DNA of 64,000 nucleotides from NCBI RefSeq assembly GCF_004341365.1, contig NZ_SLXH01000009.1, positions 1 to 64,000 on the forward strand, given 5' to 3'. Each line of letters starts with the position of its first letter. The first letter of the stretch is position 1. This DNA is from Simplicispira metamorpha. GTDB lineage: Bacteria; Pseudomonadota; Gammaproteobacteria; Burkholderiales; Burkholderiaceae_C. The notes under the pieces are model-generated. The model did no database searches and was not told the DNA's origin. It saw nothing but the letters and a program-made list of their open reading frames with translations. Shown here piece after piece: positions 42,459-52,397 of the stretch. A program made the translations under genes and the position numbers.

Positions 42459-42935
42459 TCAGTCGGCTTGGCGTTTCTTGACGGAAGTGGGCTTGCGTTT
42501 CTTGGCGCGTTTGATCTGTCCACCCGGTGTCAGGCGCTGGTTGCCCAGCACACGCAGGGTTTTGATTTCGGGACGCTGGCCGCCGCGTTTGCTGTATTTC
42601 AGCACCTTGACGTCCTTGGGGCCTGGCATGCGGTCTTCATCGACGGCACGTTCCTTGTCGGGCTGTGGGCGCCACAGTACCAGCAGCTTGCCAATGTGCT
42701 GTACGGGGGCAGCGTTCAATTCGGCAGCCAGTTCCTGGTACATCAGTTCGCGGGCGGCGCGGTCGTCGTTGAAGACGCGCACCTTGATGAGACCGTGGGC
42801 GTTGAGGGCAGCGTCCACTTCCTTGCGCACGCCAGGGGTCAGGCCATCGCCGCCAATCAGCACGACGGGGGCAAGGTGGTGGGCGGCAGCGCGTTGTTCC
42901 CGGCGCTCGGCCGGAGTCAGTTCAATTTGAGGCAT
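42459..42935 (-). CDS. yhbY: ribosome assembly RNA-binding protein YhbY
   Basis: This is a CRS1/YhbY-domain protein binding pre-50S particles. The 158-residue protein has the KH-like fold with LTPAERREQRAAAHHLAPVVLIGGDGLT at the N-terminus and HGLIKVRVF. An added Lys/Arg-rich tail (about 115-158) is not present in the roughly 97-residue E. coli protein. The ATG at 42935 gives the family start. yhbY is normally divergent from rlmE; here a prophage separates them. Confidence 0.88.
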   Translation of the reverse strand: MPQIELTPAERREQRAAAHHLAPVVLIGGDGLTPGVRKEVDAALNAHGLIKVRVFNDDRAARELMYQELAAELNAAPVQHIGKLLVLWRPQPDKERAVDEDRMPGPKDVKVLKYSKRGGQRPEIKTLRVLGNQRLTPGGQIKRAKKRKPTSVKKRQAD

Positions 42936-43042
42936 GGGCCGTATTATGTCTGCGGCCCGGAGCAAGGCACTTTCATTTCGCTTTGCGAAATGAGCCTTCG
43001 ATGCAATCGGTCAGGCCGATTGTCGAGAGACAATGGACGTGT
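42936..43042 (+). promoter_or_regulatory. stranded yhbY-rlmE intergenic region with the former rlmE promoter
   Basis: These 107 bp lead from the yhbY start to an ATGAAAGTCAA identical to the start of rlmE. TATTAT (42942-42947) could serve as a -10, and GGACGTGT precedes the ATG. The interpretation as the displaced promoter and leader of rlmE-ftsH is an inference from the prophage boundaries. Confidence 0.6.
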
Positions 43043-43053
43043 ATGAAAGTCAA
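43043..43053 (+). repeat. left attachment site core (attL)
   Basis: ATGAAAGTCAA repeats exactly at 49660-49670. It is read here as MKVN and then runs into phage sequence antisense to the recombinase gene. It is interpreted as the detached first codons of rlmE. Confidence 0.7.
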
Positions 43054-43068
43054 CAGTAGAATCCGATG

Positions 43069-43668
43069 TCAAAGATCCAGGTACTTACGCAATACCGGGT
43101 ACCGCCCGGTATTTTTTCGCCCGTTGCGTTCATCGACCAAGCGGCGCACAACGATCAAGCTCACACCGAATTCACGCGCTGCCGCAGATTGATTTACGCC
43201 GGAATCCACCAGGGCGAGCAGCTCTGCCTCACGCTCTGGAGAGAGCAGTTTAGGCCGGCCAAACTGAACGCCGCGCTTGATTGCTGACACTTGGCCGGCA
43301 ACCGTGCGCTCCCGAATGATTGACCGCTCCAACTGGGCAACAGCACCCAGCACCTGCACCATGAAAATGCCGACCGGCACAGAGGTATCCAGGGGCTCAG
43401 TCAATGATCGAATCGCCGCACCAGACGCTGATACGCTCTCCAGAATACTGAGTAAGTCTTTCAGCGATCGCGCAACCCGATCCATTTTGTAGACGACCAG
43501 GACGTCACCAGCCTTCAGCGTGGACAGCACGCGCTGCAGCTCAGGGCGCACGCTCACAGCGCTGGCCTTCTCTTGGTAAACCACCTCGACCCCTGCTTTT
43601 TTCAACGCATCGAGCTGTAAATGTGTCTCCTGATCTCGCGTTGAAACTCGCGCATAGCCAATAAGCAT
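43069..43668 (-). CDS. serine recombinase (resolvase/invertase family), probable phage integrase
   Basis: The 199-residue protein begins MLIGYARVSTRDQ with catalytic Ser9 and continues with VYKMDRVARSLKDL and VAQLERSIIRERT, the conserved Arg-rich active-site segments. A C-terminal HTH of the Hin/resolvase type follows (SPEREAELLALVDSGVNQSAAAREF). TGGAGGGG lies before the ATG at 43668; the longer frame is unlikely. It lies 16 bp inside the left attachment site, the expected place for an integrase. Serine recombinases of this size integrate some filamentous phages of Ralstonia. Confidence 0.88.
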   Translation of the reverse strand: MLIGYARVSTRDQETHLQLDALKKAGVEVVYQEKASAVSVRPELQRVLSTLKAGDVLVVYKMDRVARSLKDLLSILESVSASGAAIRSLTEPLDTSVPVGIFMVQVLGAVAQLERSIIRERTVAGQVSAIKRGVQFGRPKLLSPEREAELLALVDSGVNQSAAAREFGVSLIVVRRLVDERNGRKNTGRYPVLRKYLDL

Positions 43669-44171
43669 AGAACCCCTCCAAAGACTCGGTAAAGTCCGAG
43701 AACTGCAAACGAAGCCCAACGATATGACGATGGGAGCAAGGGCCGTAGCAAAAGGAACGACGATTAAAAGACGCACATGGCAAGAGCAAAAAACTGCTAG
43801 ATCGGCAGCATCACTTGCATGTGACTCGCTGGAATTAAGTCGTCGCTGTTTCGCAGAACAGCCGTTTGTTTTTCAAGCACGTGATCAGGACTGTGTCGGT
43901 CTGTCGCTGGGCTTCGCGTAGTTAGCTGGTGCAGGTGCGTGGGCAGTGAAAGGCTGCATGGGTTCCAGCTAAGTGAAGAAGCTGCCGCAGGCGCGCGGTA
44001 AGCCTTGGGGGAGGTCTGGCCCTAGGGGCCAGTCTGATGAGGGCAGGTGCGCGGGAAAAGCTGACCCTTAGGGCTGCGCCCTTGGACCCGCTTCAGATAA
44101 GCTAGCGCCCATGAAAACAAGTGCATTGATCTTCATGGCAGCGGCAATGCTGCTCTATGTACTGATGCGTA
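43669..44171. other. phage intergenic region, probable replication origin and packaging signal
   Basis: About 500 bp lie between the recombinase start and the zot stop without a convincing gene. Perfect hairpins occur: CTGGCCC-TAG-GGGCCAG (44016-44032) and AGGGC-TGC-GCCCT (44070-44082). Filamentous phages keep their plus and minus origins and packaging hairpin in such a region. The nick site cannot be identified from sequence alone. Confidence 0.5.
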
Positions 44172-45257
44172 TCAGAACGGTAAGGCGTGGCCAACCCCGA
44201 AGGCCTGCGCTGCGGCTGAGGTCTCGCCGTGAACAGGCAGCGTTTGATCCGGTGCAGACGACCTACTCGCCTCGACCTTACCGCCGATCGAATCGCGCTC
44301 CCCAACATAGGGATTAAACGGACGGTACACCGCCCAATGCCGACACTGATCGCTACCAACATCGAGCCGCTCCTGGCCGTGATAGCAAACGCAGTGCTCA
44401 TTGACGCAAACAGCGCCCGTGATGACTGGCATGCGGATCACCTGGCGCAGGTGGTCGTAGGCAGGAGCAGTCCATGGCCTGTCTGACAAGCGAGGCATGA
44501 AGTCGACGCGCTCGTCAGGCACAGAGGTAGGGATCTGAGCTCGAAGATCTGCCCGGACTGCGGCAGGGGCAGGTGCTGAGACCGGAGCAGGTTCTTTAAC
44601 CTGGTCGGGCGATGTATAGCGGTTAACCGAGCGCACGATCATGAACACAAGCGCGGCCAAACAGACCAGAAGCACGGCTATAAGCACCAGGGTCTTGGGA
44701 GCCATGCGCACGGGCGTGGTATGCACATTCGCACTGCCGTACAGGTCAAAAATCTGCTTGGGCAGCTTGTAGCGCTTTTTGACGGGACAGGTCTTCCAGG
44801 TCAAGGACTCATTTGTCTCGGGCCATTCGTACCACCAGCGACCGAGCCAGCCGGTGTCACGGATGTGCACATGGCGCCCCACCAAGCCGCGCACGTTTGC
44901 ATCAATCAGCCGGGGAGCCTGGGTGGTGATGAAGATGTCCACGCCAGCATGACGGTGGGTCTCCAAGGCAGCAATAGCTTCGGGCACCTTCGCAGACGGT
45001 CCCCGCGGACGCCAGCAGCCTTGGGCCTCGTCGATGATCAAAATACCGCCGTCGGGCACCTCTTCGTGCCAAGTCGATGCGTTGACCTGCGTGTGCGGGA
45101 GCTTGAGAGTTTCAGACAGCAGCTTCTGTTCGGGGCGCAGCCGCTCGGAAGGGTCGAAATGGACAAACAGCGGGCGATCCTTCGCAATGTCGCGCACCAG
45201 ATCGATCATGGCGGCAGTCTTGCCGGCGCCCGGCATGCCGGTGAACAGGGAAATCAC
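44172..45257 (-). CDS. Zot-like phage assembly ATPase (pI)
   Basis: This inner-membrane motor extrudes filamentous phage. The 361-residue protein has Walker A GMPGAGKT (7-14), Walker B ILIIDEAQG (72-80), and one membrane helix at about 188-208. The periplasmic tail is Pro/Ala-rich. The start is a GTG overlapping the upstream stop (GTGA). No frameshift is seen. The periplasmic segment is not evidence of toxin activity. Confidence 0.9.
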   Translation of the reverse strand: MISLFTGMPGAGKTAAMIDLVRDIAKDRPLFVHFDPSERLRPEQKLLSETLKLPHTQVNASTWHEEVPDGGILIIDEAQGCWRPRGPSAKVPEAIAALETHRHAGVDIFITTQAPRLIDANVRGLVGRHVHIRDTGWLGRWWYEWPETNESLTWKTCPVKKRYKLPKQIFDLYGSANVHTTPVRMAPKTLVLIAVLLVCLAALVFMIVRSVNRYTSPDQVKEPAPVSAPAPAAVRADLRAQIPTSVPDERVDFMPRLSDRPWTAPAYDHLRQVIRMPVITGAVCVNEHCVCYHGQERLDVGSDQCRHWAVYRPFNPYVGERDSIGGKVEASRSSAPDQTLPVHGETSAAAQAFGVGHALPF

Positions 45258-45535
45258 TTCACAAGCTCCAGCTTTTTAAGGCTCTGCAGGGCGACCCGTG
45301 CCACCAGTGCACCGGCAATGATGCTGGCGTAGGTATTGACGCCGGCAATCTGGACAATAGCCAGCGCCTCAGGAAAGCCAGACAGCCCCGCCCATGCCTG
45401 CTTGGCTGCAGTAAGTGCGGCATTCAGCGCGGCAGTCATAGCTGCATAGCTGACTAAGCCGAAGCCGAGTGCAGCCAGGGCGCGCTTCACGACTGATCCT
45501 GCAATCGCGGCAAGGAAAGTGCCAAAACCGGTCAT
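45254..45535 (-). CDS. minor coat protein pVI-like (DUF2523 type)
   Basis: The 93-residue hydrophobic protein has at least two membrane segments (about 18-40 and 62-82) and lies between pIII and Zot, the position of pVI in inoviruses. Its sequence resembles DUF2523 proteins, which I recall as inovirus minor coat proteins. The start overlaps the pIII stop (ATGA) and the stop overlaps zot. Confidence 0.78.
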   Translation of the reverse strand: MTGFGTFLAAIAGSVVKRALAALGFGLVSYAAMTAALNAALTAAKQAWAGLSGFPEALAIVQIAGVNTYASIIAGALVARVALQSLKKLELVK

Positions 45536-46959
45536 GACTCATCCCGAGCGCCAAGCAAGATGAACGCCGCAGATAGCCAAGCCATGGCAAGAATAATTGG
45601 CCGTATGCCCTGCGCCCAAGTGCAGAACAGATCAAACGGAATCGGGATATCGCGCCCCTGCACCATCAAATGCCTGGGTGCCGGGCACGTGGCGTTATCT
45701 GCGCCCCAGCCACTATCAGGGGTAATACTGATGGGTTTTTCTGAGCTTTGTAAATCTTTATCGCCTGGATCATCAAGTTTTTGACATGCCAATATGTCTG
45801 GATGCTTTTCGCACAGGCTCTGCTCCTCATCGGGCTTTGGCTTGTCGTTATCGCCTGGATCCGTGCCGGGGTCGGGCTTTGGGTCAGTGCTGTCAGTAGG
45901 ACGGTTGACGGGCTGCAAATCGACACGCCAAGGCTCAGTCGGCGTCGGGGATGGCTGAACCCTGATGCCTGGCTGAATGTAGGGCTGATTTTGCGGACTG
46001 GGGGCTGCGTTGGGGTCGTAGCGGGGATTTGCTACGGGGTCGCCCGTGGGGACAAACTTCGGATTGTGCAGAGGGTTCGGGTTTGTCGAGGGCGCGGGAT
46101 TGATCATGGGCGGCTGCACAGGCAGAGGTGTGGGAAACGGAAGCTCCCACGGCACGGACTCAGGCATAGGCCAATCAGCGGGGACGCGGGGCCAGCCTGG
46201 CTGTTTATCCGGCTTGAGCAAAGCATCTTCAAACTGGTCTCGGCCCAATTCCTGCGGAGGCGGCGTCTGAACGCAGCCTGCGGGTGTAACGTACCAACCG
46301 GTAGGGCAAGCGCCCTGCCTGCGATGAATGCCGATGTGATTTGTATAAGTTTCGCCTGCTTTTGAGCCGTTGTAATCCTCAGTAAGCACAAGTGTGATAG
46401 CGCAGAAAGGGGTGTTGTAGCGATCAAGGTAAAAGCGCGTACCAGTGAGCTTCACGTTCTTGCCAAAAAGTCCAGGGGTAGACGCATAAGATTGACAGGC
46501 TTGGGAGCCAGACGAGAACCACTGAACGAGATCGTGGGAATACTCAAAACCGTCAGATGTAGAAACACCGCCCTGGCCGTCTGAATCGGCCGCTCTTTTC
46601 CACTTTTTTTCGACCTCATCCCAGACGATTTTGGCGACGCCGAGCCATGCGGCAATCCCGGCAGCAGTGCGCAGTGCGGGGTGCATGAAGATGACACCGG
46701 CAGCGACACGGGGGGCATTGGCCGCGAAACGGTAGGCGGCAGGCATGATAGTAGGTGTACCGGGTACGGGTACTTTTAAGGCATTTGGCTGAAATGCAAT
46801 ATTGCCGAACTTGGCATCATTTGCAGAGGGAGCGAATGTGAAATTCGGATATGCGCCGCCGAAGCGTTCAGGGGTTGCAAGCTGGGCATAACCGGCGTGA
46901 GCGGAACACAACGCAAACAGACATGCAAACGCAGCTACCAATTTTGCGAGACGATCCAT
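45532..46959 (-). CDS. phage adsorption protein pIII-like (TspB-related)
   Basis: The 475-residue protein has a signal peptide (LVAAFACLFALCSAHAGYA). The N-terminal part contains a likely domain with cysteines, and a long Pro/Asn/Asp-rich stalk occupies about 265-400. A C-terminal cysteine-containing segment is followed by a membrane anchor (IRPIILAMAWLSAAFILLG). This is the architecture of pIII, which binds the host pilus and ends assembly. The C-terminal region resembles TspB of Neisseria phages. Its start lies within the 23-residue ORF. Confidence 0.85.
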   Translation of the reverse strand: MDRLAKLVAAFACLFALCSAHAGYAQLATPERFGGAYPNFTFAPSANDAKFGNIAFQPNALKVPVPGTPTIMPAAYRFAANAPRVAAGVIFMHPALRTAAGIAAWLGVAKIVWDEVEKKWKRAADSDGQGGVSTSDGFEYSHDLVQWFSSGSQACQSYASTPGLFGKNVKLTGTRFYLDRYNTPFCAITLVLTEDYNGSKAGETYTNHIGIHRRQGACPTGWYVTPAGCVQTPPPQELGRDQFEDALLKPDKQPGWPRVPADWPMPESVPWELPFPTPLPVQPPMINPAPSTNPNPLHNPKFVPTGDPVANPRYDPNAAPSPQNQPYIQPGIRVQPSPTPTEPWRVDLQPVNRPTDSTDPKPDPGTDPGDNDKPKPDEEQSLCEKHPDILACQKLDDPGDKDLQSSEKPISITPDSGWGADNATCPAPRHLMVQGRDIPIPFDLFCTWAQGIRPIILAMAWLSAAFILLGARDES

Positions 46960-47006
46960 GCGATCCCCACGACAGCGACAAAAACAATCAGGAATTCGGG
47001 GGTCAT
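46935..47006 (-). CDS. 23-residue hydrophobic protein, pVII/pIX-like minor coat candidate
   Basis: The ORF reads MTPEFLIVFVAVVGIAWIVS plus QNW: a single membrane helix with a short polar start, the size and character of pVII/pIX of filamentous phages. Its ATG overlaps the stop of the upstream phage gene (ATGA), implying translational coupling. pIII begins inside it in another frame. It is too short for routine gene calling. Confidence 0.6.
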   Translation of the reverse strand: MTPEFLIVFVAVVGIAWIVSQNW

Positions 47007-47323
47007 TGGTGTGCCGCCCTTCGAAGGTGCATCACGGCAGCCGTGACTATCCAGGCGGTAGCGACTCCCCAGCCGAGAGATAAGCCGTCTTGCCACTCAA
47101 GCAGCCCGCAGGGCTGCGGGGAGAGCTGTACGACGGACTGGATAGCCTGACCGCCCGCAAGAGGTGTCAGGCGGTAGGTGATCGACGTAGAAGAAACTGC
47201 ATCGACACCAATAACGAAGGTGGCACCACCATGCAAGACAACGCTGCCCACTTGGGACGATGCTGTAGCAGAAAGCGCATCAGATGCGCTGCCATAACAG
47301 GTGGTGCCGACCTGGTAGCCCAT
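47003..47323 (-). CDS. small phage membrane protein between coat and adsorption genes
   Basis: The 106-residue protein has a mostly beta-like N-terminal part (GATFVIGVDAVSSTSITYRL) and a C-terminal membrane helix (LSLGWGVATAWIVTAAVMHL) followed by Arg-Arg. Its start directly follows the coat stop and it overlaps the 23-residue ORF. It is probably a minor structural protein; the family is not recognised. Confidence 0.7.
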   Translation of the reverse strand: MGYQVGTTCYGSASDALSATASSQVGSVVLHGGATFVIGVDAVSSTSITYRLTPLAGGQAIQSVVQLSPQPCGLLEWQDGLSLGWGVATAWIVTAAVMHLRRAAHQ

Positions 47324-47521
47324 TTACTTGGCCGTACGCAGGAACTTGATGGCGGCAACAGCAATGGCAGCGACAACGAACGCAGTGGCCACAGTCACGC
47401 CGTCTTCCCGCATAGAAGAAATGGCCGTGGTGATTTCCGCAGGAACTGCGGCGTGAGCTGCGCCACCAACGAGCAGCGCCGCGCCGGCACCGTATTTGAT
47501 GGCTTGCTTGAACTTCTTCAT
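47324..47521 (-). CDS. major coat protein (pVIII)
   Basis: The 65-residue precursor has a Lys-rich start (MKKFKQAIK), a signal peptide cut near GGAAHA-AVPA, and a mature chain of about 41 residues. The mature chain has an amphipathic N-terminus, a hydrophobic core (VATAFVVAAIAVAAI) and a basic C-terminus (KFLRTAK), the pVIII pattern. AAAGGAG precedes the ATG at 47521. It lies next to the single-strand binding gene. Confidence 0.9.
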   Translation of the reverse strand: MKKFKQAIKYGAGAALLVGGAAHAAVPAEITTAISSMREDGVTVATAFVVAAIAVAAIKFLRTAK

Positions 47522-47563
47522 GGGAACTCCTTTGGGTTGTGATGCGGCAACGCGCTGCACCGC

Positions 47564-47588
47564 TTAGCCCACGTGCACCATGGGCTAA
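47564..47588 (-). terminator. hairpin between ssDNA-binding and coat genes
   Basis: TTAGCCCA pairs with TGGGCTAA over a 9-nt loop. In filamentous phages a terminator or mRNA-stabilising structure often sits near the coat gene. No T-run is seen, so the role is open. Confidence 0.4.
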
Positions 47589-47657
47589 CCGCTGAAGCGG
47601 CCCGCTCACCGGCCTATGCGCTCCTGGCGTCGCGCTTATGCCGGCGTGCGGGCGTTA

Positions 47658-47969
47658 TCACTCGACCACGTTGAAATAGTGGTCGGCGGTGCGGGCCATG
47701 GTGATTTCGCCGGTGTCCTTGTCGGTGCGCTTAAAGGTGCGCGGCACGCCACCGACGCGGCAGGTCACAGAGACTTCGTCGCCCACCATACCGAGGCGCG
47801 ATTTGCTGCGCACGGAGATGGTGGAAGGGTGGCTGTAGACATCCGGAGCCGGCGTCTTGATGAGCGTCGTGATGCTGTCCTGGAATTTGGCGACGTGCTC
47901 AATGCGGCCGACAGCGTGAAATGTCATGTTGGCCGGCTTTACGGCTGCAAGCGATGCGGGGGCGTTCAT
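47658..47969 (-). CDS. phage single-stranded DNA-binding protein (pV-like)
   Basis: The 103-residue protein contains FHAVGRIEHVAKFQD, SHPSTISVRSKSRLGMVGDEVSVTCRVGG and YFNVVE, a beta-rich OB-like pattern. It lies directly downstream of Rep, where inoviruses encode the protein that coats plus-strand DNA for export. The start at 47969 overlaps the Rep stop (ATGA); an upstream frame to 48005 is less likely. Confidence 0.75.
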   Translation of the reverse strand: MNAPASLAAVKPANMTFHAVGRIEHVAKFQDSITTLIKTPAPDVYSHPSTISVRSKSRLGMVGDEVSVTCRVGGVPRTFKRTDKDTGEITMARTADHYFNVVE

Positions 47970-49036
47970 GCGTAACTCCTGATTTGGGCCTGTAGCTCGG
48001 GCCATGCGAGACCAGCAAAAGCGCTGGCGGGGTCTACTCTTTTGGGAATTCCGATCACGCGCATTTCTTCGACCAGGTCAGCGGTGCTGCACTCGGTCAG
48101 GCTGAGCGTTTGGTGAATGGCTTTGCCATAGCAACGCCGCATGTGGTGGAGCAGGTGCGCCACGCTGGTCTTGGCTTCGGTGTGGACGGTGGGAATTTCT
48201 TCGGCTGCGGCTTCAAGCAAGCCGGCCAACGCGGGGTACGCGCCGACGAAGTACTGGTCTGGGTTCGTGAGCACGTCCAGCGGGATGACGCGGTCACGGT
48301 TGCCCAGGCGCACCTCGAAGCGGTTCCAGTTACTGTCGAGGTCGTTGAGCTGCTTGCCTTTTTCGTAGACGCAGAGGCTTTTGCCGTTTTTGAGTTTGCC
48401 GATGTACACAGTTCTGCCCTTCTTTCCGCCTTGGTTCCAGGCGCCCTGTGCGTCAAATTCAGGGTTTCGCCCGCGGTTGATAAATGCGCCGTCTTCGTAG
48501 AGGCCTACGGCGTCGTCCACGGTGTATTCACCGTCGAGAAAGTCCACTGCAAGGTCCACGCGCGAGAGCGTGGCGTTGAAGCCCTCCAGCAGTGCCTGCA
48601 GGCTGGGCCAGTCGGTGACGAGGGCGCAGCCTTTGCCGGTGAGCTGCAGCAGCCAACGGCCCTTTTGAGATTCGCCGCCCATGGCGATTGCGCCGACTTC
48701 GATGCGCGAGCCGTCGGGCACCGTGAGCGTGAGCCGGTGCCGCTCGGTGAAGCCAAACAAACCGCCATCGAGCTTTGTAGACAGTGGGCCCGCCATGACA
48801 TCGCCAAGAAACTGCAAAAGGCCATGGAAACTCATCGGGGGATGGTCAAAAGTGACATTCATCCAATCCAGTTTGGCAACGCGCTTGGTTTGGGCGACGG
48901 GGGTAGAACTTTCCACCCGTGTTACAGGACGGGTGGAAGGGAGCCGGGAAGCGCCTTCGCGGCGCAGACGCCAACCACCCCCGCCCCATGGGGGGGAGTC
49001 GATCATTCCTGCGCCGGATTGGCCGTTGATATTCAT
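47966..49036 (-). CDS. phage replication initiation protein (Rep_trans/RstA type)
   Basis: This 356-residue rolling-circle replication initiator has LDWMNVTFD, ATLSRVDLAVDFLDGEYTVDDA and GRTVYIGKLKNGKSLCVYEKGKQL. The motif FEVRLGNRDRVIP is typical of the replication initiation factor family of filamentous phages. The ATG at 49036 has AGGAG eight bases upstream; the frame open to 49075 lacks one. The start overlaps the stop of the Zn-ribbon gene by one base. Confidence 0.85.
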   Translation of the reverse strand: MNINGQSGAGMIDSPPWGGGGWRLRREGASRLPSTRPVTRVESSTPVAQTKRVAKLDWMNVTFDHPPMSFHGLLQFLGDVMAGPLSTKLDGGLFGFTERHRLTLTVPDGSRIEVGAIAMGGESQKGRWLLQLTGKGCALVTDWPSLQALLEGFNATLSRVDLAVDFLDGEYTVDDAVGLYEDGAFINRGRNPEFDAQGAWNQGGKKGRTVYIGKLKNGKSLCVYEKGKQLNDLDSNWNRFEVRLGNRDRVIPLDVLTNPDQYFVGAYPALAGLLEAAAEEIPTVHTEAKTSVAHLLHHMRRCYGKAIHQTLSLTECSTADLVEEMRVIGIPKRVDPASAFAGLAWPELQAQIRSYA

Positions 49037-49254
49037 CACGCTTGCTCCTTGCAGTACGAGAAACACTGAGGGCACAGGCCACCCTGATCAGCGTCGAATT
49101 CGTCGCTGCAGCCAGACCAATCGCAATGAGTACACCACCCCAGATTTGGGGGGTTGAGGGATGTGGTGTCCACCCCCTGCACCGCCGCAGCGGGAGCGTC
49201 CAAACTATCACCGGGGCGTTGGTGTGCAGGGGATGGGCAAGGGCAAAGGGACAT
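49036..49254 (-). CDS. small Zn-ribbon-like phage protein
   Basis: The 72-residue protein has a C-terminal CTHCDWSGC ... CPQCFSYC pattern suggesting a zinc ribbon. AGGAG lies seven bases before the ATG and the stop overlaps the Rep start (TGATG). It is therefore the first gene of the phage early operon. The function is unknown; a regulatory or DNA-binding role is plausible. Confidence 0.65.
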   Translation of the reverse strand: MSLCPCPSPAHQRPGDSLDAPAAAVQGVDTTSLNPPNLGWCTHCDWSGCSDEFDADQGGLCPQCFSYCKEQA

Positions 49255-49284
49255 TTGGACGCTCCTGTGGGAAAATTAGCAATC

Positions 49285-49336
49285 GTGATAACTAATCACA
49301 GATGCTTAGCGCCGAAATGTATCACCAATGATTAGT
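49285..49336. promoter_or_regulatory. phage divergent operator region
   Basis: Between the divergent Zn-ribbon and HTH genes lie GTGAT-AACTA-ATCAC (49285-49299) and an inverted copy of its ACTAATCA half (TGATTAGT, 49329-49336). Such paired sites between an early operon and its regulator are typical repressor operators. TAAGAT (49340-49345) could be the -10 for the rightward gene. Confidence 0.5.
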
Positions 49337-49356
49337 TTGTAAGATAGGGTTTTTCT

Positions 49357-50322
49357 ATGAATATCGTAGAAACTATAGAAAGAGCAGTTGAAAAAGTAGG
49401 TAGCCAGCGGAAATTGGCAGAGCTGGTAGGTACTCCAGAGCAAAACCTGAGCGGCTTTAAGAAAGGTCGCCCATGCAGCTACCAAAAACACGCAGAAATT
49501 GCAGCGGCTGCAGGCATGCACGAAGAAGCCCGGCATATCCTGATTCAAGGAATAGCTGATTCGTTGAGAGACGATGTAGAGCACGAAGCCCAGGCAAAGG
49601 CCGGGCTGTTGGCGATGCTGCAGGCTTTTCCCTTAGAACAAACACCACCGGAACCAGTGATGAAAGTCAAAACCCAAAGCAAGAAGGTCAACAAGGCCTG
49701 GTTGAACGACCATGTCAACGACACCTACGTCAAATTGGCCAAACTGGAAGGGTTTCGCGCCCGTGCTGCCTACAAGCTCAAAGAGATTGATGAACAGTTC
49801 GGATTGATCCGGCCTGGACAGATCGTGGTGGATTTGGGCAGTACGCCCGGTGCCTGGAGCCAGTATGTACGCCGCCGCCTGTCGCCCCAGGGGGCAGCTT
49901 CCGGTACGCTCAATGGCACCATTATTTCGCTGGATATTTTGCCCATGGAGCCGGTGGAGGGCGTGCTGTTCATTCAGGGCGATTTTCGTGAGCCGGATGT
50001 GTTGGCGCAGCTCGAAGAGGCCATGCAAGGGCGTCAGGCTGATGTGGTGGTGTCAGACATGGCGCCCAACCTGTCAGGAATTGGCGCCACGGATGCAGCG
50101 CGCATTGAGCACCTGGTGGAACTGGCCGTGGATTTTGCCAGCCAGCATCTCAAACCCGAGGGAGCGCTGGTGGTGAAGCTGTTCCATGGCGGCGCCTACG
50201 CGCCTTTGGTGCAGTTGTTCAAAGACACTTTCCGTCTGGTCAAGCCCGTCAAGCCCAAGGCGTCGCGTGACAAATCCTCTGAAACCTTTTTGGTCGGTAT
50301 CGGTCTGAAAAAGACGGTTTGA
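49357..50322 (+). CDS. phage HTH regulator fused in frame to RlmE
   Basis: The open frame encodes 321 residues. Residues 1-100 are an HTH regulator ([22 protein letters not shown]) of the kind found in filamentous phages. Residue 102 is the natural initiator Met of RlmE and the rest is a complete RlmE. AGGG lies seven bases before the ATG at 49357, so the HTH part should be translated, and no stop separates the two parts. The junction coincides with the right attachment site. Whether cells make the fusion, free RlmE from 49660, or both cannot be told from sequence. Confidence 0.75.
49660..49670 (+). repeat. right attachment site core (attR)
   Basis: ATGAAAGTCAA is the first four codons of rlmE and an exact repeat of 43043-43053. 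The prophage supplies the upstream in-frame codons GAA CCA GTG. Confidence 0.7.
49660..50322 (+). CDS. rlmE: 23S rRNA (uridine2552-2'-O)-methyltransferase RlmE
   Basis: This enzyme methylates U2552 in the A loop during late 50S assembly. The 220-residue protein from the natural ATG has [22 protein letters not shown] at its start. The K-D-K-E catalytic residues are in [27 protein letters not shown] and SSETFLVG, and the SAM loop is [13 protein letters not shown]. Only a weak ribosome site (CCGGAA) precedes this ATG, because phage sequence replaced the natural leader. It is followed by ftsH in the usual order. Confidence 0.93.
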
Positions 50323-50477: not shown

Positions 50478-52397
50478 TTGAATAATCAGTGGTTTTCAAA
50501 AGTCGCCGTATGGCTCGTTATCGCCATGGTGCTCTTCACCGTGTTCAAGCAGTTTGATACGCGTGCTGGCGCTGCTGCGGGTCATATCGGTTATTCGGAG
50601 TTTCTGGACGAGGTGCGCAACAACCGCATCCGCAGTGCCACCATCCAGGAAGGTCAGGGCGGCACCGAGATCGTGGCCGTTACCAACGATGACCGCAGAA
50701 TCCGCACCACGGCCACCTACCTTGATCGGGGCTTGGTGGGCGACCTGATCAACAACAACGTCAAGTTTGACGTCAAGCCGCGCGAAGAGGGCTCGTTGCT
50801 CATGACCTTGCTGGTCAGCTGGGGCCCCATGCTGCTGCTGATTGGCGTGTGGGTGTACTTCATGCGCCAGATGCAGGGCGGTGGCAAAGGCGGTGCCTTC
50901 AGCTTTGGCAAGAGCAAAGCGCGCATGCTCGATGAAAACAACAACACGGTCACCTTTGCCGATGTGGCTGGCTGCGATGAGGCCAAGGAAGAAGTCAAGG
51001 AAGTTGTCGATTTTCTGAAAGACCCGCAGAAGTTCCAGAAGCTCGGTGGTCGCATTCCGCGCGGTTTGCTGCTGGTAGGTCCTCCTGGCACGGGCAAGAC
51101 CTTGCTGGCCAAGTCCATCGCGGGTGAAGCGAAGGTGCCGTTCTTCAGCATCTCGGGCTCTGATTTTGTCGAAATGTTCGTTGGCGTGGGTGCAGCTCGC
51201 GTGCGCGACATGTTCGAGAATGCCAAGAAAAATGCCCCCTGCATCATCTTCATCGACGAAATTGACGCGGTGGGGCGCCAGCGCGGTGCGGGTCTGGGCG
51301 GTGGCAACGATGAGCGTGAGCAAACGCTGAACCAGATGCTGGTCGAGATGGACGGCTTCGAAACCAACCTGGGTGTGATCGTGGTGGCCGCCACCAACCG
51401 CCCTGACATTCTGGATGCCGCGCTGCTGCGTCCGGGCCGTTTTGACCGCCAGGTGTATGTCACGCTGCCCGACATCCGGGGCCGTGAGCAGATCCTCAAC
51501 GTCCATATGCGCAAAATTCCGGTCAGTCAGGACGTGAATCCCGGCATCATTGCCCGTGGTACGCCCGGCATGTCGGGTGCTGACCTGGCCAACCTGTGCA
51601 ACGAAGCCGCCTTGATGGCCGCGCGCCGCAACGCCCGCACCGTGGAGATGCAGGACTTTGAAAAGGCCAAGGACAAAATCCTCATGGGCCCCGAGCGCAA
51701 GAGCATGGTCATGCCCGAAGAAGAGCGCCGCAACACCGCCTACCACGAGTCCGGCCATGCGTTGATCGGCAAGTTGCTGCCCAAGTGCGATCCAGTGCAC
51801 AAGGTCACTATCATCCCGCGGGGCCGGGCGCTGGGCGTGACCATGAGCCTGCCTTCACAAGACCGCTACAGCTATGACAAGGAGTTCATGCTGAACCAGA
51901 TCAGCATGCTGTTTGGTGGTCGCATCGCCGAAGAAGTGTTCATGCACCAGATGACCACCGGCGCCAGCAACGACTTCGAACGTGCCACGCACATCGCCCG
52001 CGACATGGTGACGCGCTATGGCATGACCGATGCCCTGGGCCCCATGGTGTATGCCGAAAACGAGGGCGAAGTGTTCCTGGGCCGCTCGGTCACCAAGACC
52101 ACCACCATGAGCGAGTCCACCATGAAGAAGGTGGATGACGAGGTGCGCAAGATCATCGATGAGCAGTACGCCCTGGCGCGCCGCCTGATCGAAGAAAACA
52201 GCGACAAGATGCACGCCATGGCCAAGGCGCTGTTGGAGTGGGAAACCATAGACACCGACCAGCTCGACGACATCATGGCTGGCAAGGCGCCGCGCCCCCC
52301 CAAAGACTGGACGCCGCGCACCCCATCCTCTGGTGGCGATGGTTCTGGTGGCGGTACGCCTGCGGTGGCTTCGGAGCCCGCCCCCACGGTGGCCTGA
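50478..52397 (+). CDS. ftsH: ATP-dependent zinc metalloprotease FtsH
   Basis: This inner-membrane AAA+ protease handles quality control and LpxC/sigma-32 turnover. The 639-residue protein has two membrane helices (about 7-25 and 103-122) and Walker A GPPGTGKT. The pore motif lies in [15 protein letters not shown], followed by the SRH segment [19 protein letters not shown]. The Zn site is HESGH. The C-terminal tail is Gly/Ser/Pro-rich. The start is TTG with GGAG (50468-50471). If it has no promoter in 50323-50477, it depends on the phage-derived promoter upstream of rlmE. Confidence 0.96.

Follow-up and report, generated by a model that had tools for sequence, protein, structure and literature searches.

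The frame at positions 49357-50322 (+ strand) is a single open frame of 321 amino acids from its ATG, with zero internal stops in the ORF list and translation. Residues 1-101 are related to HTH proteins (PHROG 638, transcriptional regulator, E 1.9e-6). Their match to Pfam YdaS is weak (E 4e-4, under the cut-off of that family). Residues 133-316 match Pfam FtsJ (E 4.7e-52), and the FtsJ domain is complete. Across the junction the frame reads ...GAA CCA GTG and then ATG AAA GTC AAA, the beginning of rlmE at 49660. The first-pass annotation of this DNA had described one 321-codon frame holding a phage HTH regulator and a whole RlmE, joined by insertion of a prophage. The frame is confirmed by the translation and the FtsJ match. 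The insertion is borne out by the Zot, Rep, coat, ssb and TspB-like genes, by an 11-bp repeat and by empty sites in relatives.

Judged by its genes, the element is an inovirus-like prophage (Table 1). The genes for Rep, ssb, the coat protein, the TspB-like protein, Zot and the recombinase all lie upstream of the HTH-rlmE frame and on the opposite strand. The 11-bp sequence ATGAAAGTCAA occurs twice in the window (the whole 64,000-nucleotide stretch analysed here), at 43043 and at 49660, with no further copy on either strand. The tRNA genes of the window are at 2096 and 2213 only, that is, none is at the prophage site. ftsH follows rlmE and is therefore also placed behind the prophage.

Table 1. 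Features of the prophage and its host flanks (positions in the window).
Feature	Position	Strand	Basis
yhbY, neighbour of rlmE in empty sites	42459..42965	-	Pfam CRS1_YhbY
Former rlmE upstream region, now severed from rlmE; carries ATTGTCGAGAGACAAT at 43019-43034	42966..43042	+
Inovirus-like prophage, 6617 bp (6.6 kb), between yhbY and rlmE	43043..49659		Flanking core repeat, phage genes, empty sites in relatives
Left attachment core ATGAAAGTCAA (attL); host side retains the former rlmE 5' region	43043..43053	+
Small serine recombinase, predicted integrase, converging on the att site	43069..43668	-	Pfam Resolvase 1.1e-36; same-site relatives 71-76% identical
Zot-like pI assembly protein	44172..45257	-	Pfam Zot 1.6e-21
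Small protein, probable minor virion protein	45254..45535	-	Relatives adjoin Zot in other inovirus-like loci
TspB-like, probable adsorption protein	45532..46959	-	Pfam Neisseria_TspB 1.9e-12
Unnamed phage ORF, 106 aa	47003..47323	-	Relatives in other inovirus-like loci
Major coat protein	47324..47560	-	Pfam Phage_Coat_B 7.9e-10
Single-strand DNA binding protein (ssb)	47658..48005	-	PHROG 8473 4.7e-25
Replication initiation protein (Rep)	47966..49075	-	Pfam Rep_trans 7.3e-31
Inverted repeat AACTAATCA...TGATTAGTT between rep and HTH; possible operator	49290..49337
HTH regulator (probable lysogeny repressor)	49357..49659	+	Open up to and through the att core; PHROG 638
Right attachment core (attR), first codons of rlmE	49660..49670	+
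rlmE, complete, here in frame with the HTH ORF	49660..50322	+	Pfam FtsJ; relatives up to 91% identical
ftsH, downstream of rlmE	50478..52397	+	Pfam Peptidase_M41 1e-71, AAA, FtsH_ext

RlmE was detected in 57 of the 60 genomes searched, the window genome counted. Thirty rlmE loci were fetched, and in 28 of them the site is empty, with a yhbY match directly upstream of rlmE, within 105 nt. The two loci that have no adjoining yhbY match are the window and genome G004. rlmE starts with ATG in all 30. For the window prophage, the repeat and the empty sites together confirm insertion at the 5' end of a host gene. The palindrome ATTGTCGAGAGACAAT stands just before the former rlmE start, and several relatives carry GCGACAAT at the same place. 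It is possibly a native control element that is now split from rlmE.

Prophages at the yhbY-rlmE site were found nine times, and the right end is readable in four (the window, G004, G279 and L057). G004 belongs to the same genus and holds a different phage at the same site; the Zot proteins are 28% identical, the recombinases 74% and the HTH proteins about 60-62%. In G279, from another genus, attL lies beside yhbY on one contig and attR at rlmE on another (recombinase 61% and HTH about 61-63% identical to those of the window). L057 is a metagenomic viral contig in which the HTH ORF overlaps rlmE. It carries inovirus-type Rep and ssb genes, and no recombinase was found on the contig. The remaining five are IMG/VR contigs (L042-L046) that show the left junction only; ATGAAAGTC lies next to their recombinases, which are 71-76% identical. 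In four of these five the left junction is followed by a yhbY match; the fifth, L043, shares the flank and ends before yhbY could match.

Occupancy of the rlmE site is rare among the 399 family genomes, because a recombinase profile search of these genomes (at most eight candidates scored per genome) found only the window and G279 at yhbY/rlmE among the eight genomes that matched at E 1e-70. Among 26 genomes of the genus, seven match at 1e-40, two of them at yhbY/rlmE. A DNA pattern for attL found the window only in the 399 genomes; this pattern is not exhaustive, misses cores like that of L046, and missed G279 although that genome was sampled and is occupied, and the genus is sparsely sampled. 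For further right junctions, an RlmE scan of viral contigs gave L057 alone, an attR DNA pattern gave none, and an HTH profile search of genome contigs gave G004 only. The recombinase tree does not resolve the rlmE-site phages as a clade and gives no support to a monophyletic origin of their recombinases.

In none of the four readable right junctions does the HTH ORF stop before the core; it overlaps the start of rlmE in each. The overlap spans the whole gene, in frame, in the window. It is 23 nt in G004, 31 nt in G279 and 46 nt in L057, all out of frame. The start codon supplied from the phage side is clearest in G279 and L057, where the ATG of rlmE is replaced by ATC and ATT, respectively. 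In the frame of these two phages, ATG (within ATGA) would give the HTH ORF an immediate TGA stop. The window and G004, which use other frames, retain the ATG. Four cases are too few to say that avoidance of TGA through ATC or ATT reflects selection. The HTH tail between a conserved AFP motif and the core varies (about 49630-49659 in the window). Joining the two prophage ends gives free-form HTH frames of 150 (window), 189 (G004) and 257 (G279) amino acids, and the integrated forms of G004 and G279 have 112 and 107. The three joined tails, which read through the recombinase gene in antisense, are unalike and share no conserved end. They differ in frame and length, and neither a conserved tail of the free-phage repressor nor a conserved degron was seen.

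The ribosome site claimed at 49357 in the first-pass annotation is present but modest, at -4.1 kcal where the median of the background is -2.8. Synthesis of native RlmE is uncertain because the Shine-Dalgarno match before 49660, at -3.5 kcal, is near that background, and internal initiation there is possible. The displaced native leader of rlmE is likewise weak (-4.0), as is the G004 junction (-2.9). Good-looking ribosome sites precede the replaced rlmE start in G279 (AAGGAGG) and in L057 (GGAG, -6.6 kcal). Among 14 empty loci tested, seven have a clear ribosome site (-8.0 kcal) and seven a weak one. A consensus scan found no sigma70-like promoter before the HTH gene at the threshold used. Nor did the + strand between HTH and rlmE show a terminator-like site.

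A profile built from the four HTH proteins matched 28 places in 24 of the 399 family genomes; one more, in the genus of G279, makes 29 loci. A site is recognisable at 18 of them (rlmE in two, tRNA-Ser in nine, dif-like in seven), and in all 18 the HTH stop lies in or beyond the near edge of that site. No site was recognised at the other 11. All nine HTH ORFs at tRNA-Ser run into the tRNA gene and end within it, 15 to 58 nt past its edge. Six of these end in WR[RK]RRDSNP, an antisense reading of that tRNA. A subsequent scan of 18 of the 29 loci found dif-like sites in seven, and all seven HTH ORFs end in or after them. The cut-off, 17 or more matches to the 24 positions of the E. coli consensus, was set after the scores were seen, and chance places in the same loci reach 16. 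One genome, G187, holds both states. The HTH ORF runs into tRNA-Ser in L092 and towards a convergent recombinase in L109, and the two are alike over 209 nt (one mismatch) up to the core TTGGCGGAAACGGA and divergent after it. Both the window junctions and this natural pair place attP inside the repressor ORF. Run-through into the site is not universal. The HTH gene has its own stop in L047 (inserted in another gene, with the stop at the core) and its relative L054 (site not visible), and also in L087 and L089, whose att cores could not be defined. The L047 phage carries a close relative of the recombinase, and the gene that it has entered reads like what we take to be comEC. At four loci (L083, L084, L088 and L092) inspection by eye showed a terminator-like hairpin shortly ahead of the tRNA-Ser core, within the HTH ORF and before it reaches a stop; any transcript that ended at the hairpin would be without a stop codon.

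Most probably, a filamentous phage has integrated site-specifically at the first codons of rlmE, with attP in the 3' end of its repressor gene, and the resulting overlap is in frame by chance here. In this scheme the small serine recombinase would carry out the recombination, a role suggested by phiRs551, whose recombinase is reported from deletion to integrate the phage (PMC5608472). The position of attP, as reconstructed from the two prophage ends, would be at the 3' end of the HTH gene, which converges with the recombinase gene, and attP would resemble the rlmE start. The inverted repeats before the HTH gene suggest that its product is the repressor. After integration the phage would provide everything upstream of about rlmE codons 2-4, including the start codon, the ribosome site and presumably the repressor promoter, and the host would provide the end of the repressor ORF. 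The lack of a terminator-like + strand site between the two genes suggests that rlmE is transcribed from the repressor promoter. The overlap present at all four readable junctions could couple translation of rlmE to that of the repressor. In the window, translation from 49357 would yield an HTH-RlmE protein of 321 residues, and native RlmE may be made alongside it from 49660. The data support a change by integration of both the regulator C-terminus and the rlmE upstream region.

The first-pass annotation suggested that the arrangement may work as a hybrid of DNA-binding protein and methyltransferase, either a repressor carrying RlmE or an RlmE tethered by a DNA-binding domain, that would tie lysogeny to host fitness. 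In its favour, the frame has no stop and neither part is truncated. An N-terminal extension of RlmE is also plausible, because the FtsJ crystal construct begins at about RlmE residue 31. An AlphaFold2 model of the 321-residue product, made from an alignment of 19 rows (mean pLDDT 65.7), is confident over parts of the RlmE core. It bears on this core only, because the 123 of 321 residues below 50 are nearly all in residues 1-116. It is not confident at residues 77-116 and is silent on the HTH part, with a pLDDT of 37-48 in each ten-residue block of residues 1-100. Against a functional fusion, three of the four readable junctions have HTH and rlmE out of frame, so the hybrid is not conserved. 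A search for the same HTH-RlmE junction in other genomes and viral contigs found that overlaps recur and that, among the four right junctions known, the window alone has the in-frame fusion. One in-frame junction in four is not more than chance, which predicts one in three for an HTH ORF open to the core. We therefore consider a working hybrid very unlikely and dropped it as the main reading; the sequences do not support a dedicated repressor-methyltransferase. The fusion is real but probably incidental. Three related insertions overlap rlmE out of frame, so that an integration strategy used repeatedly seems to have given the fusion here by chance. That the fusion is instead an assembly or sequencing error, joining frames truly out of register, is very improbable. 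The genome is a draft in 68 contigs and the tail from the AFP motif to the core is variable, but this tail has no homopolymer over four bases and the same type of junction is present in three other sources.

The exchange of C-termini could have a function of its own. The suggestion that the regulator acts differently once integrated fits the attP-in-repressor layout of the relatives and a proposal made in 2013 for phiRSS0, that its two repressor forms differ in function (PMC3816273). It is possible, if doubtful, that immunity depends on integration as in the mycobacteriophage BPs, with a long destabilising tail of the free repressor swapped for a host-encoded end that activates it. The place of attP, the longer free forms of G004 and G279, the precedents of BPs (PMC4557955) and phiRSS0 (PMC3816273), and the ATC and ATT in the two phages whose frame would meet the TGA all speak for it. 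The free-form tails, however, are unalike and antisense through the recombinase gene, and the integrated form in the window is longer than the free one. It is unlikely, to our mind, that this phage lineage uses the rlmE start codon as attB with overlap and TGA avoidance under selection, and with rlmE and perhaps ftsH co-expressed with the repressor. If this were so, integration would give the repressor a new tail and bring a host gene for ribosome assembly under repressor control, and the in-frame hybrid would be an extreme form. Less probable again is a plain loss of function, in which the prophage disables rlmE, and perhaps ftsH, because the gene loses its promoter and ribosome site, as mutL is affected by SpyCIM1; the open frame would then be incidental. 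The former upstream region does stay to the left of the prophage, and the ribosome site at 49660 is near background. Yet the + strand is free of terminator-like sites between HTH and rlmE, L057 and G279 bring ribosome sites of their own before rlmE, and the RlmE sequence is conserved.

Site-specific integration of a filamentous phage at the rlmE start, the reading we prefer, has partial counterparts in known systems. In the phiRSM-type filamentous phages of Ralstonia, attP is described as lying between serine integrase and repressor (PMC4471427). The window prophage shares with them the inovirus genes (Zot/pI, Rep, coat, ssb), site-specific integration, and an attP that lies between the converging genes of a small serine recombinase and the repressor (PMC4471427; PMC5608472). 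Their core TGGCGGAGAGGGT, however, lies in tRNA-Ser, a feature absent here, where the core is the rlmE start. Their repressor (ORF15) is reported to be unchanged by integration (PMC3816273), whereas the repressor ORF of the window crosses the core. In phiRSS0, attP (dif) is described inside the 3' end of the repressor gene ORF13, and integration alters the C-terminus, from 156 to 130 aa (PMC3816273). An attP in the repressor 3' end of a filamentous phage is thus already known. Unlike the window prophage, phiRSS0 relies on XerCD/dif in place of an integrase of its own, and the end contributed by its host does not belong to a protein gene. BPs is a tested case of integration-dependent immunity, with attP within the repressor ORF and different C-termini in its two states (PMC4557955). 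There the repressor is shortened and an ssrA-like tag removed, whereas in the window the tail is exchanged for host sequence. Elements that enter a host gene at its 5' end and re-supply that end are known at dusA (IMEVchUSA3) and prfC (SXT) (PMC8409611). Their effect is described as an altered N-terminus; at the rlmE site, by contrast, a regulator ORF overlaps or is fused to the gene, and the start is ATC or ATT in two cases. SpyCIM1 likewise targets the 5' end of a housekeeping gene, and its integration is reported to cut mutL from its transcription (PMC4689407), whereas here the HTH gene reads into the host gene.

New here are rlmE as the target and the supply of its start codon and upstream region by the phage. 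A search of the open-access literature on prophage or inovirus integration at rlmE (rrmJ, ftsJ) found no paper on this site. Integration sites listed for filamentous phages are tRNA, dif and repeat sites (PMC4471427), to which the start of rlmE adds a protein-coding target, the first codons of a conserved rRNA methyltransferase gene. The HTH relatives suggest that attP at the repressor 3' end is common in this phage group. Were expression to follow the phage repressor, lysogeny would alter 2'-O-methylation of 23S rRNA, and perhaps also the supply of FtsH, an effect that is directly measurable.

Some further observations concern related elements. A tblastn search of phages with the HTH protein (E 0.01) gave Dulem virus 61 as the sole match. 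In this named circular inovirus (L052), recombinase and HTH genes converge 6 bp apart, the same module in a free phage. On L044 and L045, two attachment cores lie 21 bp apart shortly beyond the recombinase stop, and the outer one reads like host rlmE codons 1-7; the pair may be a scar left by an earlier event, or the site may be duplicated. Contig 377 of genome G007 (L039) carries two recombinase-Zot sets within 16 kb, apparently two inovirus-like prophages side by side. In genome G065 (L086), an HTH gene close to the window type lies upstream of an ORF that we take to be YchJ-like.
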